A stretch of 28,563 nt of DNA from a virus. The translations under genes were made by a program, and so were the position numbers. Shown here piece after piece: positions 8,761 to 21,230 of the stretch; the first letter of the stretch is position 1; every line of letters starts with the position of its first letter. The DNA lies in IMG/VR virus record IMGVR_UViG_3300045963_000149, positions 1-28,563 of that record. One strand, 5' to 3'. The notes beneath the pieces were generated by a model that worked only from the letters and a program-made list of their open reading frames with translations, made no database searches and was not told where the DNA came from.

Positions 8761-9371
8761 TCGACGTCGCCACGCTAGTGAGGTGCGGCGTGGCGGCGAC
8801 TCAGGCGCGCATCTACGCCGACTCACTGGATGCCGCGTGCGCGCGGTTCAAGATAAACACCAAGCCTCGCATCGCGGCGTTCCTCGCGCAGACTTACCAC
8901 GAGTCGCAGAAGTTCACCCGGACTGAGGAGTCGCTCTACTACACGACGCCGCAGCACATCCGGGATATGTGGCCGACCCGGGTCACGACGCTCGCGGAGG
9001 CCGCGAAGCTGTGCCGAAACCCGCAGGTCTTGGCGAACCGGGTCTACGCAAACCGGCTCGGTAACGGCCCGGAGTCGAGCGGTGACGGCTGGGCATTTCG
9101 CGGTCATGGGCTCATCCAGATGACCGGCCGAGACTGGGCGAAGAAGGCCACCGCCGGGCTTGGGATCGACTTCGTAGCGAACTTCGGCTTGGCCGGGGAG
9201 CCGGGCGGTGCTTGTCTGACCGCGGCTTGGATATGGAGCGAAATCAACGCCAACGACTTGGCCGACGCCAGCCTGATCGATGCCATCACCCGCCGCGTCA
9301 ATGGGCCGGGAATGGTCGGCGCGGACGACCGGCGGAGTCGGTTCGACGACAACCTGAGGGCCCTTGCATGA
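8757..9371 (+). CDS. Endolysin, glycoside hydrolase family 19 (chitinase-like muramidase)
   Basis: A 204-residue protein starting at ATG 8757 in ATGA overlap with the holin; the longer frame to 8562 is a shadow of the holin gene. Clear GH19 marks are the catalytic Glu in Q-T-Y-H-E-S (E49), a second acidic site in T-R-T-E-E-S (E57/E58), A-N-R-L-G-N-G-P-E-S-S-G-D-G at about 98-111, and the motif W-x-F-R-G-H-G-L-I-Q-M-T-G-R at 112-125. R-V-N-G near the C-terminus is also typical. Phage GH19 enzymes hydrolyse the glycan strands of peptidoglycan. There is no signal peptide or SAR segment, so release should depend on the holin upstream. Length is normal for single-domain phage GH19 lysins. Confidence 0.92.
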   Translation: MIDVATLVRCGVAATQARIYADSLDAACARFKINTKPRIAAFLAQTYHESQKFTRTEESLYYTTPQHIRDMWPTRVTTLAEAAKLCRNPQVLANRVYANRLGNGPESSGDGWAFRGHGLIQMTGRDWAKKATAGLGIDFVANFGLAGEPGGACLTAAWIWSEINANDLADASLIDAITRRVNGPGMVGADDRRSRFDDNLRALA

Positions 9372-9946
9372 ACTCACTGATCGTGAAGGTGGTCGCCCTG
9401 CTCGCGGCGATTTCGGCCGTGACCATTTGGCACTTCCGCGAGGTGCACTCCGCCGAAGCCGACGGCCACGAACGGGGTGCCTCGGAGGTCGCCGCGAAGT
9501 GGGATCAGGAGCGCCAACGAATCACCGCCGCCGCACTGACGGCATCCGAACTTGCACGCCAAAAGGAGGCCGCTTATGTCACCGCAGTCGAATCCACGAG
9601 AGAACACTATGCCCGCGAAAGCGACGCCAGCAAGGTTGCTGCTGCTCGCGCTGCTTCTGAACTTGGCCGCTTGCGCGTCGCCGTCGCGAACGCCCGGCCC
9701 GCTGGATCAGGGGTTGGTCGATGCGGAGGCGCAGGCCCGAATCCGCCACCCAATGATCACGCCGCTGTCGATGCCCCGCGAGTTGATGAAACCGCCCCGG
9801 GAGTCGGGGTATTACTCATCGCATGCGGAGAGCAGCTTCAAGACGTGGCAAGAGTGGCTGACGAACTTGGGGACCAAGTCCGCGGACTGCAACGCCACAC
9901 AGAGTCGCTGCTAGAGCACATCGCTGGCCAGCCGCCAATCCCCTGA
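9368..9946 (+). CDS. Rz: Inner-membrane spanin subunit (Rz-like)
   Basis: A 192-residue protein starting at ATG 9368 (ATGA overlap with the endolysin). An N-terminal membrane anchor spans about residues 4-21. A long Ala/Glu/Arg-rich coiled-coil periplasmic region follows (residues about 30-105, with E-R-G-A-S-E-V-A-A-K-W and Q-R-I-T-A-A-A heptads), then a Pro-rich low-complexity stretch and a second helical segment. This is the layout of phage i-spanins, which join with the outer-membrane lipoprotein Rz1 to fuse the membranes in the last step of lysis. The C-terminal extension beyond residue 105 overlaps the Rz1 frame, and its Gly/Pro-rich part is probably shaped by that overlap. Its stop overlaps the sigma factor start. 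Confidence 0.88.
   Translation: MNSLIVKVVALLAAISAVTIWHFREVHSAEADGHERGASEVAAKWDQERQRITAAALTASELARQKEAAYVTAVESTREHYARESDASKVAAARAASELGRLRVAVANARPAGSGVGRCGGAGPNPPPNDHAAVDAPRVDETAPGVGVLLIACGEQLQDVARVADELGDQVRGLQRHTESLLEHIAGQPPIP
9609..9914 (+). CDS. Rz1: Outer-membrane spanin lipoprotein (Rz1-like), nested inside Rz
   Basis: A 101-residue frame lying wholly inside Rz in the +1 frame. Starting at ATG 9609, a short basic N-terminus (K4, R9) leads into a Leu/Ala core ending in the lipobox L-N-L-A-A-C, with the lipidated Cys at residue 22. The mature part is Pro-rich (P-S-R-T-P-G-P, T-P-L-S-M-P, K-P-P), as expected for o-spanins. This is the classical embedded Rz/Rz1 arrangement of lambda-like lysis cassettes. 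ATG codons at 9552 and 9576 are also in frame, but 9609 gives the signal peptide the right length. The C-terminus (about residues 75-101) is helical and possibly interacts with Rz. Confidence 0.85.
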   Translation: MPAKATPARLLLLALLLNLAACASPSRTPGPLDQGLVDAEAQARIRHPMITPLSMPRELMKPPRESGYYSSHAESSFKTWQEWLTNLGTKSADCNATQSRC

Positions 9947-13562: not shown

Positions 13563-13739
13563 ATGAACATGTGGACAAAGCTGATTACCGTGTGGCTCAA
13601 CGTCGATATCACTATTGCTGTTAAAGTTAAAGATGAACTCTGCGAGATGGGCATCAGCTTCAGCAACAGCACCGAGCGTCAACTCAAGCGCGCCGCCAAA
13701 GAGGCACTGGAAACTCTCAAAGCCAGAGGACAAGCGTGA
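13563..13739 (+). CDS. Small protein of unknown function, cassette gene 6
   Basis: A 58-residue protein starting at ATG 13563 after leader copy 5 (AAAGG 8 nt upstream). The N-terminus is hydrophobic (M-W-T-K-L-I-T-V-W-L-N-V), followed by a charged helix (S-T-E-R-Q-L-K-R-A-A-K-E-A-L-E-T-L-K). The stop TGA overlaps the GTG start of the dCMP deaminase (GTGA), so both genes are probably translated from the same messenger. There is no known motif. Its reading frame, leader and coupling make it a convincing gene in spite of its size. Confidence 0.72.
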   Translation: MNMWTKLITVWLNVDITIAVKVKDELCEMGISFSNSTERQLKRAAKEALETLKARGQA

Positions 13740-14158
13740 GACCTACACTAGATCAGTACTTCATGGAGATAGCACACGTGGCAGCCAAGCGTGCTACGTG
13801 TGCACGGCGCAGAGTTGGATGCGTCATCGTTGACGCCAACGGCTACATCCTGTCGACAGGCTACAACGGCATGCCAAAGGGTTTCCCTCACTGCATCGAT
13901 GAGCCATGTGACGGCGCCAATTACCCGAGCGGCACAGGCCTCGACTTGTGCCAGTCATTGCACGCTGAGCAGAATGCCATTGCTCGGCTGCGTGAACCGT
14001 TCCTGGCACACACGCTCTACTGCACGACTGCCCCTTGCATCAGTTGTGTGAAACTGATCCTGGCCACTAGTATGCAGCGGATTGTGTTCGACTCCGACTA
14101 TCTCAGTGGCGGCAAAGACCTGTGGTTGAGGGCAAACAAGGTCTGGGACAAGCTGTGA
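13736..14158 (+). CDS. Deoxycytidylate (dCMP) deaminase
   Basis: A 140-residue zinc enzyme converting dCMP to dUMP. Motifs: V-G-C-V-I-V-D (27-33), T-G-Y-N-G-M-P-K-G (41-49), the catalytic H-A-E-Q-N-A-I (H76, E78) and P-C-I-S-C (C101, C104) binding zinc. C-x-D-E-P-C in the substrate loop is typical of the ComEB/T4 Cd class. It starts at GTG 13736 in GTGA overlap with the upstream gene and is itself overlapped by the polymerase start, so it is produced with the replication gene. The dUMP it supplies would feed the thymidylate-synthase-like enzyme on the opposite strand (19822-20469), which fits a modified-pyrimidine pathway. Confidence 0.93.
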   Translation: MRPTLDQYFMEIAHVAAKRATCARRRVGCVIVDANGYILSTGYNGMPKGFPHCIDEPCDGANYPSGTGLDLCQSLHAEQNAIARLREPFLAHTLYCTTAPCISCVKLILATSMQRIVFDSDYLSGGKDLWLRANKVWDKL

Positions 14159-16637: not shown

Positions 16638-16847
16638 ATGATCAAAACTCTATTTGATAGCGGCCACACGCTCATCGACAACAATGTCGGTGACTTAGAC
16701 TTGGTCTGCCCATTCGAACGTCAAACCCTGTTCGTACCAGCGATGATTGGTATCACACTGACTAACAAGACGAAGTGCCCTATCTGTGGCTCCCAGTTGG
16801 GGATTCGTATCAAGGACAACGACTACGGCTCAAACTCCGTTGACTAG
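16638..16847 (+). CDS. Small protein with C-P-I-C-G zinc-like motif
   Basis: A 69-residue protein. ATG 16638 with GGGAAAG upstream is preferred over GTG 16626. It contains D-L-V-C-P-F-E-R and C-P-I-C-G-S-Q-L, three cysteines in the spacing of half a zinc ribbon, so metal binding is possible but incomplete on sequence alone. It is the last plus-strand gene, and its final 18 nt overlap, tail to tail, the end of the minus-strand gene at 16830. Confidence 0.65.
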   Translation: MIKTLFDSGHTLIDNNVGDLDLVCPFERQTLFVPAMIGITLTNKTKCPICGSQLGIRIKDNDYGSNSVD

Positions 16848-17963
16848 CATCTTGTACTCAAGTGGCGACATTTTGCCCTTGATCACGTAGTCGTCCGATG
16901 GGTGGACGTCGATCTCGTTGAACGACTTGATCAGCCCATAGTCGAGCATGGCCTTCTGTCTGCCGAATGGGTGGTCCTGGATTGTGCTACTGTTCCACAG
17001 CGTGTCGCGGTCCAGATGGTTGTAGTCATGGCCAGGCCTGACATAATTTTCAATCCAGCGGATGAAGTCGCAGCAGATGTCCTCAGCATCATATGGGTGC
17101 TCGCCCGTATCGCTCTGAATCTGTTCCATCACAGCATCGAGGAACGACTCCTCTGGGCCACGTCCAAGCGGCCTCGCCAGGTACTTGATGCACTCTTTTG
17201 CGTTTGTGCCGTAGAAAAACGGCGTGTTGCGCCAAACCAGACCTGGGTAGAAGTCTGCGATGTCTGCAATCACAGCTGCGTACTGGAACTTGTAGGCCCG
17301 AAGATTTTTCAGCTTGTTCCAGGCAAACATCCACTCACCGACTTTACGCAGTGTTGGTTTGTCCGATTGATTCAGCATCTCAGCCAACTCCCTCGCTAAG
17401 CTTGGCGCGTAGGCTGCTAGGAACGTGTCACCTCCAAGCTTAAACCGGCCGCTTGGCTTTGGGAATGCTGGAAACTGGTAGCCGACACTTGTGTAGATCT
17501 TCATCGTATCCGGGCGATTGGCCACCACGTCGATCATGTCTTCAATCGAACGGCACTCAGACAGGTGCGGAAGGATAGTGTTGTTGTATCCGCTTGGCTT
17601 CTTGGCGTAGTTGATGCCGCTTCCAGTCACACGATGAAGGATGAAGACGTACAGCCATTCAGGCAGATCCCAGTACTCGTGGATGAAGTCAAACTTGTCG
17701 CAAATGGGTTTGCGCACCGCGTGTAGCTTGTTTGCGTACGGGTGCTCAGGACTGTTGGCGTACCACAGGTCTAGGACAATCTGCGTAAATCCGGCATACT
17801 TACGGTTGACCACGTCGTAGAGATGCACGTTCTGCATGAGAGGGTCTTTGACCGTCCCTTGGTCTTGTGGAATCGTGCCGAGGTTGCACTCTATCTGCTG
17901 CGTCTTCGCCATCTGGTAGTAGCGAAGAAACTCGTTGTAGTAGCGCGTCTTCTCTATTCTCAT
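16830..17963 (-). CDS. Putative amino acid:DNA transferase (aGPT-pyrophosphorylase-like, DNA-glycosylase fold)
   Basis: A 377-residue protein starting at ATG 17963 (AGAGAGG upstream, ATGA overlap with the PLP enzyme gene). The frame to 17996 would add residues read from inside the upstream gene. The core has W-L-Y-V-F-I-L-H-R-V-T-G-S-G-I-N-Y at about 103-119, then G-Y-N-N-T-I-L, and F-Q-Y-A-A-V-I-A-D with F-F-Y-G-T-N-A-K-E-C at 227-258. The R-x-T-G-S-G segment and this layout resemble the alpha-glutamyl/putrescinyl-thymine pyrophosphorylase clade. In phages such as ViI and M6 these proteins attach an amino acid to phosphorylated 5-hydroxymethyluracil in DNA. The PLP enzyme and hydroxymethylase-like neighbours support this. 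The assignment is by eye; a divergent glycosylase-like protein of other function is possible. Confidence 0.6.
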   Translation of the reverse strand: MRIEKTRYYNEFLRYYQMAKTQQIECNLGTIPQDQGTVKDPLMQNVHLYDVVNRKYAGFTQIVLDLWYANSPEHPYANKLHAVRKPICDKFDFIHEYWDLPEWLYVFILHRVTGSGINYAKKPSGYNNTILPHLSECRSIEDMIDVVANRPDTMKIYTSVGYQFPAFPKPSGRFKLGGDTFLAAYAPSLARELAEMLNQSDKPTLRKVGEWMFAWNKLKNLRAYKFQYAAVIADIADFYPGLVWRNTPFFYGTNAKECIKYLARPLGRGPEESFLDAVMEQIQSDTGEHPYDAEDICCDFIRWIENYVRPGHDYNHLDRDTLWNSSTIQDHPFGRQKAMLDYGLIKSFNEIDVHPSDDYVIKGKMSPLEYKMLVNGV

Positions 17964-18865
17964 AGACCTCTCTCTAAGTCGCTCATGTCGTGCCACTCTC
18001 TCTGACTGCGGATGGACTCTATCAGACCAGGTGTGAGATGGCGCTCAATGTCTGCGTCTGCTCCTACGTTGATGAAGATCGCACCGGGTTTTGCAAAGAC
18101 GTCGAAGTCTGTCCAGCACTTAGCATCGTAGTTGGCCGTCGATGGAAATGGCGGGTACTCTGCAGGCTTGACGTCTTTCAAGAACGGCGTCGTTGAGCTA
18201 ATGACTTTGGCATTGCCGATCTCGCCGTCGTGCATGTTGCGAGACACTGCGATGCCTCGTGCTTCAACTGCAGGCCAAGCAATCTGGAACGCTCTGATTG
18301 CTGTGCCAGTGGACACGGCCATCCAGATCTGAGTAGGGTCTTTGCCGATCTTCTTGCTGATGTTGATCGACACGTTGACCAGGCCTGCAGTGACCAAAGG
18401 CACGCCTGTCAGACCGAACGGCAAGAACAACGCGCCGTGCTTTGTGGCCCATCGCTTTGCATACGTGTTCAACGTTGGCATTGCAGCGATCTTGATGAAG
18501 CGAAGGTCCGCTCCCCTGGCTTTGAGAACGGCCTGGTGCTTGGATGGATGCTCAGCTGCAGGACAAAAGAAGACGCACTTCTTGCCATACATTTCTGCGA
18601 GAGTGGCGATAGCGTCCGGCGCGTGGCCAACTCGCGGTGCGCAGTAGACCAACACGTCTTCTTTAGCTTCAGCTATGATCCTCTCTGCGCCAAATGCCTT
18701 GAGGCCTGCAGGTGCCTTGTCTGCTCTGAAGATCCACTTGTCCTCATAGGCTTCGACGGTCGGTTCAGGCATTCTGCCCTTGAAGCTGTCGTACATGTCA
18801 ACGTAGTCCTGCCGAGTGTGGCTCAGCAGGTCTTTGTTCGTTGTGTCCCGCGTGACGGTGAACAT
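17960..18865 (-). CDS. PLP-dependent enzyme, fold type II (ACC deaminase/TrpB-like)
   Basis: A 301-residue protein whose ATG directly follows the stop of the SGNH gene (TGAATG). The N-terminal W-I-F-R-A-D-K-A-P-A-G-L-K-A-F-G-A-E-R matches the R-x-D-x-x-x-x-G-x-K-x-R region of fold type II enzymes, with K56 the likely Schiff-base lysine. A-E-H-P-S-K-H-Q-A-V-L-K-A-R-G-A at about 104-119 is the usual domain-closing segment, and S-T-G-T (185-188) the phosphate-binding loop. Relatives deaminate, decarboxylate or eliminate from amino acids. In described hypermodification systems a PLP enzyme processes the amino acid already attached to DNA. Position between the SGNH-like and transferase-like genes fits that. 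The substrate is unknown. Confidence 0.8.
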   Translation of the reverse strand: MFTVTRDTTNKDLLSHTRQDYVDMYDSFKGRMPEPTVEAYEDKWIFRADKAPAGLKAFGAERIIAEAKEDVLVYCAPRVGHAPDAIATLAEMYGKKCVFFCPAAEHPSKHQAVLKARGADLRFIKIAAMPTLNTYAKRWATKHGALFLPFGLTGVPLVTAGLVNVSINISKKIGKDPTQIWMAVSTGTAIRAFQIAWPAVEARGIAVSRNMHDGEIGNAKVISSTTPFLKDVKPAEYPPFPSTANYDAKCWTDFDVFAKPGAIFINVGADADIERHLTPGLIESIRSQREWHDMSDLERGL

Positions 18866-19825
18866 TCAGCTCCAATCAAAATAGCGGCGATAGTACTTGG
18901 GTGCGATGTGGACCGAGCCACCCATTTCCATGAACCTCTCAGCATAGAGCTCAGGGTCCATGTCGTACCAGCTAAATGGTGGTTGCACAAGATCGATGCC
19001 GTGTTTGCCAATCTCATCCATGAAATGATTAGTCCAACCTGACCGCTGACACTGCGTGCCACAGAATGGCGTGTTGTTGTAGTAGCCTGTCTTAGGCAGC
19101 TTGCGACCCTCATACTCCACTGGCACAGGCGCAGCAACTTCAACTTCGCACATGTAGTCGTCTTGGATCGATTTGACGTGGTCTGCGTAGTCTTTGCAGA
19201 GCTTTCTGATACCCTCGACAGGATTGGCAAGGCGACCGATATGGTGTCGGATGTCTATTGATCCATAGACCAAAGTTACGCGCTCCGGTGTTATGCTGAG
19301 CGCGTCGATTTGTGTTTTGATTGAGCCTGATTTGAGTACGCCATGGAGAGTGGCACCGTTGGTTCTGAGCACGCTGCTCCCGGATGCGCTGAATGCCGTT
19401 GAGTGGCTGTCGCCGATGGTGACGTGTGACTGACCAAGGCCTGCCATTGTCAAGGTCTCAGAGGCATAGAGCCTTTGACCCAGTGTGTCAAGAAGATGGG
19501 CCAAAGCAGGGTGGCACGTCGACTGGCCTAGCCGCTTGCTGAGTTGCTCAACGTAGTCTGGCATCGGAATGTCCAGGCTGATGAGCTTAACCGGCTCAGC
19601 TAGCAGCATGTCCATCAGATTGTCGATGACTTTGTCGGTCACGCCGCCGAACAGATTCATCGTGCCGCCGAAGTTGACACCATGATCGAGGTAGAGAAAT
19701 GAGTGACCGGTCAAGCTGCCACCGTCGCTGATCTTTGATCCAAGCAGATCAGCCCAGACCATAGACCAACCACGAACGTGACTGCGGCCATTCGCCGGAA
19801 TGCCTGAAAACGGATTAAAGATCAT
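18866..19825 (-). CDS. SGNH/GDSL hydrolase-like protein in the modification operon
   Basis: A 319-residue protein starting at ATG 19825 (ATGA overlap with the synthase-like gene; the longer frame to 19921 is inside that gene). Block I is V-T-I-G-D-S-H-S (G138-S142) with Ser140 the expected nucleophile. V-Y-G-S-I-D-I-R-H-H-I-G (187-197) corresponds to the third block as in relatives with G-E-I-D-x-R-x-H. S-V-H-I-A-P-K-Y-Y near the C-terminus would hold the catalytic His. SGNH enzymes are esterases, acyl hydrolases or acyltransferases. The N-terminal 130 residues are not recognised. Tight coupling between synthase and PLP genes implies a step in the same pathway, for example acyl transfer to or from a modified base, but no activity is proven. 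Confidence 0.68.
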   Translation of the reverse strand: MIFNPFSGIPANGRSHVRGWSMVWADLLGSKISDGGSLTGHSFLYLDHGVNFGGTMNLFGGVTDKVIDNLMDMLLAEPVKLISLDIPMPDYVEQLSKRLGQSTCHPALAHLLDTLGQRLYASETLTMAGLGQSHVTIGDSHSTAFSASGSSVLRTNGATLHGVLKSGSIKTQIDALSITPERVTLVYGSIDIRHHIGRLANPVEGIRKLCKDYADHVKSIQDDYMCEVEVAAPVPVEYEGRKLPKTGYYNNTPFCGTQCQRSGWTNHFMDEIGKHGIDLVQPPFSWYDMDPELYAERFMEMGGSVHIAPKYYRRYFDWS

Positions 19826-20469
19826 ACGAGGTTGAAGTGGCGTGGATAGACGTGCAAGCTGCCGGCATTCCAGTAAATCGGACCTTTCTTGAGCTCCGGG
19901 TACTGTCGTTCCAAGTTGCACAAGGCCATGTCTTGTACGAAGTTGTGCCAGTGCCAGTCGCCCTTGTAGCCGAAGACGACATCGCTACTCCGCATGTTGA
20001 CGATGTAGTGCAGTTCATTGTTGCGGATCAACATTTGCGTCGAGTATGTGCACATGAAGTCCTTCATGCCGTTACGCCTGGAGTCCTCGTGCATGGTCGG
20101 CCTAGTGTAGATCATCACAGCTTGGCGACTTGTTGCATTGGCTTCTAAGGCCTTGATTGCAGTGAGGTACTGTCTATGGTTGTCCTCACTGAAAACGCAC
20201 CACCCATAGTTGGAGTTGATCTCGCCATCGAGTGATGCTATTTGCTTCCAGATTGCCGGGATGGGCGCAGGAATGTCTTCGATCTTAAGCGACTGGCTCA
20301 GGTACCATTGCAGCTCACGACGACACCAGCCATGGACCACATCGCCAAAAATCGTCTCTTCGTCAGCTATAAACGACGCATTGATGATCTCGAGGTTGCC
20401 GTCTTCGGAAAAGATCTGCTGGCTCAACAGGTTCTTGAATGTCTGCTGAATGTCCCTGACTGTTTTCAT
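19822..20469 (-). CDS. Thymidylate synthase / deoxynucleotide hydroxymethylase-like enzyme
   Basis: A 215-residue protein starting at ATG 20469 (ATGA overlap with the MazG-like gene). It follows the thymidylate synthase fold: S-N-Y-G-W near residue 90, S-R-Q-A-V-M (114-119), the nucleophile in D-F-M-C-T-Y-S (C140), M-R-S-S-D-V-V-F-G-Y (159-168), and the end G-S-L-H-V-Y-P-R-H (203-211). By eye, D171 falls where thymidylate synthases have the Asn that recognises uracil, as in T4 dCMP hydroxymethylase. This argues for a hydroxymethylase and against plain thymidylate synthase, but leaves dUMP versus dCMP open. It is shorter than typical synthases (about 260), mainly at the N-terminus. It would produce the 5-hydroxymethyl precursor for DNA hypermodification. 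Confidence 0.82.
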   Translation of the reverse strand: MKTVRDIQQTFKNLLSQQIFSEDGNLEIINASFIADEETIFGDVVHGWCRRELQWYLSQSLKIEDIPAPIPAIWKQIASLDGEINSNYGWCVFSEDNHRQYLTAIKALEANATSRQAVMIYTRPTMHEDSRRNGMKDFMCTYSTQMLIRNNELHYIVNMRSSDVVFGYKGDWHWHNFVQDMALCNLERQYPELKKGPIYWNAGSLHVYPRHFNLV

Positions 20470-21230
20470 CGTACGAACCGATCGTCTTTGTCCTTGTTGT
20501 GCTCGACGTGCTCCATTAGGATGAGCAACTGAGTACCTGCATGGGCAAGATGGTGGTGATTGGATTCAGGGTCTTTGTCAACGCCTCTCCAGAAGTCGAA
20601 CAGGTGACGCAGGATCGAACCGTATGTGCGACTCCATGCCACAGTGTCTCCTTCACGATACGAGTTGGCAAAGTACTTCCTGGTGCCAAAGCCGAACACG
20701 TTGGCGATCTGCATCATAGGGCCAATCGGCAGCAGGTCCACACGAACCTTGTCGCTGTCGAACTTAGGCGCAAAGCCTGGAACAATCGTGCCGTCTGAGC
20801 TCGGTGCAACCTTTGTGCCGGTGAGCTTAGTGATTCTTTTTTCCATCACATCGAACAGGATCTTGTTCAGTTCTTCCTCAGGGCCAGTCCAACCTGCCGG
20901 CTTGACCAAGTCACGCTTGAAGCCGCGCTTACTGGCTTCAGCACTGGCGGCCAATTCCTTCTTCATGTTTGCGCGCATCACAGTCTCAAAGCCTTCAAGC
21001 AGCGGAAAACCGTGACGCTCAAGAGTGCCGACAGTAAATACGAGCAAGTCGAGCAGAGCATCGTACTCATCGACAAGACCTACGGCCTCTTTGTACTCGT
21101 CCAACTCCTCTTGCATGGCCTTGACGCGAAACTCCTTCTCAGTCAAATCGAGATGAGCCGGATCGCCGTCATGAGACAAGCCGAATTTTTTGTGCATGTC
21201 CTGCACTAGCTTATAGAGTCGAGACTCCAT
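20466..21230 (-). CDS. MazG-like nucleoside triphosphate pyrophosphohydrolase with dATP/dGTP diphosphohydrolase N-terminal-type domain
   Basis: A 254-residue two-part protein with a strong AAGGAG before ATG 21230. Residues 1-75 carry a PRA-PH/MazG-like helical core: E-E-L-D-E (41-45) and D-E-Y-D-A-L-L-D (54-61), the acidic metal-binding pair. Residues about 106-245 contain K-F-D-S-D-K-V-R-V-D-L-L-P, G-T-R-K-Y-F-A-N, then H-L-F-D-F-W-R-G and H-H-H-L-A-H-A-G-T-Q-L-L, as in DUF5664/dGTP_diPhyd_N proteins. Such enzymes clear particular dNTPs. First in the coupled modification operon, it may remove the canonical nucleotide (dTTP or dCTP) or dUTP so that the modified one is incorporated. Nucleotide specificity cannot be read from the sequence. 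Confidence 0.78.
   Translation of the reverse strand: MESRLYKLVQDMHKKFGLSHDGDPAHLDLTEKEFRVKAMQEELDEYKEAVGLVDEYDALLDLLVFTVGTLERHGFPLLEGFETVMRANMKKELAASAEASKRGFKRDLVKPAGWTGPEEELNKILFDVMEKRITKLTGTKVAPSSDGTIVPGFAPKFDSDKVRVDLLPIGPMMQIANVFGFGTRKYFANSYREGDTVAWSRTYGSILRHLFDFWRGVDKDPESNHHHLAHAGTQLLILMEHVEHNKDKDDRFVR

Follow-up and report, generated by a model that had tools for sequence, protein, structure and literature searches.

Complex amino-acid-derived modifications of phage DNA are best known on thymine. In the thymidine route, activated 5-hmdU receives amino acids, which PLP decarboxylases and other enzymes then tailor; a kinase phosphorylates the hydroxymethyl group of 5-hydroxymethyluridine (hmU) before the amino-acid transfer. 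The PLP decarboxylase of phage M6 is said to trim the base-linked amino acid. To our knowledge, and as the original prediction had also stated, no SGNH enzyme takes part in the described steps of thymidine hypermodification, and no work linking SGNH enzymes with DNA modification was found in our literature search, which did not cover the key thymidine-hypermodification papers.

We analysed a 28,563-base virus record, IMGVR_UViG_3300045963_000149 (the whole stretch is called the window below). Its locus shares with the thymidine systems of M6, PaMx11 and ViI (5-hmdU, amino-acid transfer, tailoring) a nucleotide hydroxymethylase of the TS fold, a predicted glycosylase-fold amino-acid transferase and a PLP enzyme of the phrog_7093 group. 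In contrast to these systems, however, the hydroxymethylase is of the cytosine and not the uracil type, the transferase has no Pfam ADDT match, an HMUDK_hel match is missing and an SGNH enzyme is present. The gp42 hmC pathway of T4 and RB69 (glucosylation/arabinosylation) likewise has a closely related dCMP hydroxymethylase and a nucleotide-hydrolase partner gene, whereas in the window transferase-like, PLP and SGNH genes occupy the place of the T4 hmC glycosyltransferases; T4-type glycosyltransferases were not specifically sought in the window. The carboxymethylcytosine-glycine system CmoA/CmoX/CmoY of Synechococcus phage S-B43 also puts an amino acid on a cytosine-based handle in phage DNA, but its enzymes are a carboxy-SAM methyltransferase and an ATP-dependent ligase (PMC12783734), in place of the hydroxymethylase, glycosylase-fold transferase, PLP and SGNH enzymes of the window. 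The SGNH O-acetyltransferases PatB, PatB1 and XOAT1, which act on polysaccharides or peptidoglycan (PMC9487903), have the SGNH fold and altered Block III/oxyanion-hole residues in common with the window protein, whereas the latter is intracellular, lies in a DNA-modification operon and has an N-terminal part of its own. The system is best called an amino-acid-type phage base hypermodification on 5-hydroxymethylcytosine (hmC), with the SGNH enzyme as an obligate member. The cassette appears to move the thymine-type amino-acid logic onto hmC in hundreds of uncultured phages, and it points to a DNA modification route without prior description.

Organization of the operon

Five minus-strand genes, encoding P0005, P0004, P0001, P0003 and P0002 in this order, form an operon in which neighbouring genes overlap or abut (Table 1). 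Read on the minus strand, the junctions are ATGA between the MazG and synthase genes (CGATGAAA), ATGA between the synthase and SGNH genes (...GTATGATC), TGAATG between the SGNH and PLP genes (GCTGAATG) and ATGA between the PLP and transferase genes (CTATGAGA). The SGNH product P0001 begins with MIFNPFSG and contains GDSHS at residues 138-142 and S-I-D-I-R-H-H at residues 189-195. Both the G-D-S-H-S and I-D-x-R-H-H blocks (the latter at residues 190-195) and the ATGA and TGAATG junctions between the synthase-like and PLP genes, on which the original prediction was built, were thus confirmed, with the key columns of the blocks kept in 78/78 sequences. Because the gene order recurs in relatives, most close ones also having short overlaps, and because the motif columns are invariant, the motifs and junctions go beyond chance. 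An alternative start of the P0001 ORF is a GTG at 19921, 96 bases upstream of 19825, but the start at 19825 is preferred because homologues align from MIFNPF and because it gives the ATGA overlap.

The plus strand of the window carries tail genes, a DNA polymerase gene and the dCMP deaminase gene, and the minus strand upstream of the operon carries genes for a single-strand-binding protein, a DUF2800/PD-(D/E)XK protein and an SNF2 helicase. P0005 probably shapes the dNTP pool, and the dCMP deaminase probably serves in nucleotide-pool control.

Table 1. Positions in the window of the cassette genes, a frequent neighbour and the key codons of the SGNH protein
Feature	Position	Strand	Evidence
Amino-acid:DNA-transferase-like protein, HhH-glycosylase-like (P0002)	16830..17963	(-)	model pLDDT 80.9; 8z2n Z 10.2
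Fold-type-II PLP enzyme (P0003), distant M6 gp52 relative	17960..18865	(-)	PF00291 E 4e-7 (below curated cut-off); phrog_7093 E 3e-54
SGNH-fold protein P0001, 319 aa	18866..19825	(-)	PHROG 13881 E 1.1e-60; predicted fold; N-terminal alpha/beta part ~1-125, SGNH domain ~130-318
His306 codon, Block V histidine	18908..18910	(-)	His 78/78; position -3 (303) = S/K/Q/R/G
D191-I-R193 codons, after Block III position (Asn -> Ile190)	19247..19255	(-)	I190 77/78, D191 78/78, R193 77/78
Ser140 codon, Block I nucleophile of G-D-S-H	19406..19408	(-)	78/78 conserved
dCMP hydroxymethylase, T4 gp42-type (P0004)	19822..20469	(-)	PDB 1b49 E 1.3e-62; Cys140 + Asp171
MazG/PRA-PH + dGTP_diPhyd_N domain nucleotide hydrolase (P0005)	20466..21230	(-)	PF18909 E 7e-24, PF01503 E 6e-7
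dCMP deaminase, frequent accessory neighbour	13736..14158	(+)	related ORF in 52/84 loci

The hydroxymethylase is of the cytosine type

The specificity residue of these enzymes is Asp in gp42, which acts on cytosine, and Asn in thymidylate synthase, which acts on uracil. The closest PDB relative of P0004 was T4 gp42 (1b49), and the best thymidylate synthase reached only 2.9e-6. Cys140 and Asp171 of P0004 presumably correspond to Cys148 and Asp179 of gp42. The cytosine-specifying Asp was found in 16/16 aligned cassette members (the window and 15 others), and the catalytic Cys was likewise conserved across the aligned hydroxymethylases. As controls, the dUMP hydroxymethylase of M6 has Asn at the specificity position, 44RR gp42 has Asp and the 44RR thymidylate synthase has Asn. 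Sequence comparison thus strongly supports P0004 as a dCMP hydroxymethylase of the T4 gp42 type, so that the pathway would start from hmC and not from thymidine. The thymidine setting that had been proposed for this locus was rejected on account of the Asp at the specificity position.

The transferase and PLP neighbours

The best PDB match of the P0002 model was the PaMx11 5-PmdU glycinyltransferase (PUGT, 8z2n), with 208 residues aligned and 2 Z units above the remaining matches, of which queuine-salvage and AGOG 8-oxoguanine glycosylase folds came next. In BFVD, a viral protein named 'Amino acid:DNA transferase' was 52% identical (E 2.5e-33). No Pfam or PHROG family matched P0002. The Pfam ADDT model PF18724 gave nothing at E up to 1, with M6 gp51 as control at 1e-46, and an hhalign comparison of the window transferase family with M6 ADDT or HMUDK_hel gave nothing significant. 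The relation of P0002 to ADDT is therefore visible by fold only.

M6 gp52 belongs to the same PHROG as P0003, phrog_7093, which matches gp52 with E 2e-159, and the two proteins share the C-terminal motif PFP..YD.K.W...F.N(V/I)G. Lys56, the candidate PLP lysine of P0003, is invariant. A phmmer search of P0003 against the PDB gave no match.

Linkage of the cassette genes in other phages

A survey seeded with the SGNH protein covered 27 close relatives, then the best 80 of 367, together with four prokaryotic contigs. When the resulting 84 loci were clustered, a PLP gene was found in 74, a transferase gene in 71, a hydroxymethylase gene in 53, a dCMP-deaminase-like ORF in 52 and an additional gene, here called gene X, in 37, counts that include many truncated contigs. 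In the reverse survey, seeded with the transferase, the best 80 of 558 relatives were kept, and SGNH and PLP genes were both present in all 35 of the 35 loci that had at least 3.5 kb on both sides; like the SGNH-seeded survey, it samples the relatives nearest to the query, which limits its reach. The family is thus found together with DNA-modification genes rather than mostly away from them, as had been predicted. In all, the cassette was found in hundreds of metagenomic phage contigs.

The order of the cassette genes varies between loci, and at least two host gene backgrounds occur, one of the SNF2/DUF2800/SSB type as in the window and one with other replication genes. The varied order and the different backgrounds indicate that the cassette travels as a module. 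Taken together, the surveys strongly support the SGNH gene as an obligate cassette member and as part of DNA modification. Among 50,697 phage records, neither the transferase family (two distant members tried) nor gene X was found. The operon, searched against phages at the nucleotide level, gave nothing beyond a 2% match with a dCMP hydroxymethylase gene.

Fold of the SGNH protein

The AlphaFold2 model of P0001, built from 34 relatives, had a mean pLDDT of 90.6. Residues ~130-318 have the SGNH/GDSL fold according to Foldseek and VIA-align, and the five-stranded flavodoxin-like core of this fold is present in the model, in agreement with the original prediction. The top structural match was 4s1p (Z 12.6, 163 residues aligned, rmsd 3.4), followed by many GDSL esterases (Z 10-12), PAF acetylhydrolase and TesA; the catalytic domain of the PatB O-acetyltransferase was also among the matches (Z 11.1). 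Esterases and acetyltransferases led the structure rankings of both Foldseek and VIA. Glycosyltransferases were absent among the structural matches of the model, an absence that does not count against them. By sequence, the Pfam Lipase_GDSL match was sub-threshold (13.5 bits against a cut-off of 23.6), the SGNH profile found no meaningful match in the PDB, and NCBIfam held no family for the SGNH protein or the transferase. Conservation is high in the N-terminal ~125 residues (SHV..W and HGVNFGG.LNLFGG), which were barely aligned by Foldseek or VIA, with no clear structural match.

Active site of the SGNH protein

Conservation was assessed in 78 SGNH sequences dereplicated at 90% identity, four of them from cultured phages. 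G138-D139-S140-H141, G188, D191, H195 and H306 were invariant (78/78), and R193 and E300 were kept in 77/78. The Block I nucleophilic Ser (GDS) is therefore present, as G-D-S-H in every sequence. By sequence alignment, candidates for the Block II oxyanion Gly are G157 (47/78) and G162 (75/78). The Block III oxyanion Asn (GxND) is missing in the 78 sequences: the motif reads G-[SN]-I-D, with Ile190 in 77/78 and Val in one, and position 189 is Asn in 41/78 and Ser in the window protein. The DxxH acid of Block V is also missing, since position 303 is S, K, Q, R or G and never D or E in the 78 sequences. Hence, of the Ser140/Asp/His triad that had been proposed, Ser140 and His306 stand as invariant residues, whereas the Block V acid is lost and the Block III Asn is replaced by Ile.

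Ser-His dyads are known in CE2 esterases, which likewise have no Block V acid; the xylan acetyltransferase XOAT1 has a hydrophobic Block III, and the acetyltransferase PatB1 has an Asp-anchored Arg in its oxyanion hole (PMC9487903). The invariant D191-x-R193 is reminiscent of the Asp-anchored Arg of PatB1, but it stands at Block III, not at Block II.

In a second subgroup of 27/78 sequences, which come from transferase-seeded loci, Gln/Tyr replace W20/W24, conserved elsewhere, and Trp replaces F52. These changes may reflect a different acceptor or donor.

Relatives in cultured phages

In the 50,697 phage records, members of the SGNH family came from T4-like phages (38 Aeromonas records and 2 Stenotrophomonas records), with remote members in Tenacibaculum phages. 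ORF233c of Aeromonas phage 44RR2.8t and ORF233c of phage 31 belong to the same SGNH family with about 25-31% identity; like ORF50 of PTm1 (below), both carry the annotation 'hypothetical protein'. Four Aeromonas/Stenotrophomonas records were searched further: a gp42-type hydroxymethylase was present in 4/4, and the transferase and PLP families gave no match. The remote relative in Tenacibaculum phage PTm1, ORF50 (L165:7542-8561, profile E 1e-25), lies between ribonucleotide reductase genes; the synthase-like gene of PTm1 has the cytosine-type Asp, and no match to the PLP family was found in this phage. Like the window, the phages searched from this group and PTm1 thus carry a cytosine-type hydroxymethylase. 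That this enzyme is common to nearly all settings suggests that the SGNH protein acts on hmC or a direct derivative of it.

ORF233c of 44RR2.8t (L001:7992-10376) encodes 795 aa, with an SGNH domain and, unlike the window protein, a C-terminal fusion of ~460 aa; its gene adjoins a sodium/solute symporter gene. The C-terminal region gave weak HMUDK_hel matches in two libraries (E 0.0036), and hhalign of this part against HMUDK_hel and against the transferase families was not significant, so that the identity of the fusion rests on the two weak profile matches. In Aeromonas phage phiAS4 (L002:5766-9038), the SGNH gene is preceded by the gene of a UDP-galactopyranose mutase and by a 358-aa ORF without annotation that is glycosyltransferase-like by eye. 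Neighbours of this type hint at sugar-decorated hydroxymethylcytosine in Aeromonas phages.

Search for a DNA kinase

The title of 8z2n gives 5-phosphomethyl-dU as the substrate. HMUDK_hel matched neither the window record nor any of ten relatives; these records are possibly incomplete, and the M6 control gave 1.4e-57. One relative, G001, has 55,988 bases with structural and replication genes by eye; in a motif search of its clear genes, a kinase-type Walker A occurred only in a helicase-primase-like ORF. Conversely, the SGNH family was absent from eight hmU-type phage records, M6 included. With no HMUDK_hel in the cassettes and no SGNH gene in hmU phages, the SGNH enzyme and the kinase look like alternative partners of the transferase. 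The apparent lack of a kinase is argued from contigs that are not complete, from a motif search and from a single Pfam model; a kinase of unrelated type, or an enzyme of the host, could fill the role.

Proposed pathway and alternative functions

We hold with high confidence that P0001 is a constant part of a phage pathway for cytosine hypermodification via hmC. In the pathway that we propose, P0005 would hydrolyse dNTPs and P0004 would convert dCMP to hm-dCMP, which would be incorporated into the DNA as hmC. P0001 would then act on hmC in DNA as a Ser-His acyltransferase, in which Ser140 passes a donor acyl group to the 5-CH2-OH and D191-x-R193 contributes to the oxyanion hole in lieu of the lost Asn. 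P0002, with a fold that resembles PUGT, would flip the base and attach an amino acid or an amine to its 5-methylene; the acyl group might be displaced in this step, as PUGT displaces the phosphate from 5-phosphomethyl-dU. Finally P0003, a distant homologue of M6 gp52, would trim the base-linked amino acid.

The acyltransferase idea arises because a Ser-His pair with acyltransferase-like changes in the active site could esterify the hydroxymethyl group and so make it a leaving group. The SGNH fold, the invariant Ser140 and His306, the obligate partnership, the dCMP hydroxymethylase and the missing kinase match may be read in its favour, and action at the DNA level would fit the 44RR protein, in which the SGNH domain is joined to a putative HMUDK_hel-like region in a phage with a gp42-type hydroxymethylase. 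However, SGNH proteins are more often hydrolases than transferases, and the neighbours of the SGNH gene in Aeromonas phages include sugar genes, so the substrate there might be a sugar. We therefore give acyl transfer to hmC or an hmC derivative in DNA somewhat less than an even chance. That the SGNH enzyme replaces the DNA kinase altogether, with an hmC acyl ester as the leaving group for the amino-acid:DNA transferase in a kinase-free route, is a more speculative proposal and, in our judgement, rather improbable. If the chemistry holds, it would provide a new base and possibly enzymes for labelling or protecting hmC, a base of epigenetic interest; a kinase-free route would be one that is widespread among environmental phages but has no counterpart known from laboratory phages.

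Most relatives of the fold are esterases, and Ser-His dyad esterases of the CE2 type exist (PMC9487903), so the protein could instead be an esterase or deacylase of the hmC pathway that produces the final modification by taking off an acyl or ester group, either one on the amino-acid-decorated base or one on the transferred amino acid. The obligate partnership with the transferase and PLP genes would also suit this role, but the Block III Ile and the invariant D-x-R are nearer to acyltransferase variants than to hydrolases, and the Aeromonas SGNH proteins occur without a transferase or PLP match, which makes an amino-acid ester unlikely as a common substrate there; we regard deacylation as doubtful. 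A similarly low probability is assigned to reuse of the SGNH fold on hmC DNA or nucleotide without an acyl-enzyme, either to transfer another group such as a sugar, a phosphate or an amino acid, or only for binding and positioning. The loss of both the classical Block III Asn and the Block V Asp, the conserved N-terminal ~125 residues without a clear match and the sugar-related neighbours in Aeromonas phages are consistent with such reuse, whereas the invariant G-D-S-H and the Block V-like S-V-H histidine look like those of a working Ser-His pair, and esterases and acetyltransferases rank first in both structure searches.

Two further readings fare much worse. Many of the SGNH domains known from phages form part of tail proteins that target surface polymers, and P0001 might in principle have no role in DNA modification and act, for instance, on lipids or capsule of the host, its link to the operon being positional only. 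This is very unlikely for a free-standing, cytosolic-looking protein within a nucleotide/DNA operon, given the 35/35 reverse linkage in at least two gene backgrounds and the putative fusion of DNA-modification type in 44RR. A new step in thymidine (hmU) hypermodification, as originally predicted, would explain the resemblance of the transferase and PLP genes to their M6 and PaMx11 counterparts. It is extremely unlikely, since every cassette member checked has a dCMP-type hydroxymethylase (the Asn controls being the dUMP enzyme of M6 and the TS of 44RR), the HMUDK_hel kinase domain was not found and the eight hmU-type records lack SGNH. The DNA-modification reading of the SGNH gene is thus strongly supported, with acyl transfer to hmC as the reaction that we favour.

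Variation among the cassettes

Two long contigs, G007 and G008, have the rest of the cassette and no hydroxymethylase match; these exceptions to the shared cytosine hydroxymethylase speak against action on hmC, but the two contigs may be fragments. Gene X (L076:7015-7995 (+) and ~37 other loci) encodes ~325 aa and adjoins the transferase gene in about half of the cassettes. It has no Pfam, PHROG or NCBIfam match. An hhalign comparison with the transferase family gave E ~1e-4, and its motif GTGHFDGM resembles GPGAIRGL of HMUDK_hel; gene X is perhaps a second glycosylase-fold transferase. In L077 and L078, the usual place of the PLP gene, directly after the SGNH gene, is taken by a gene for a CTP_transf_like nucleotidyltransferase (8963-9397), which suggests a different tailoring step.
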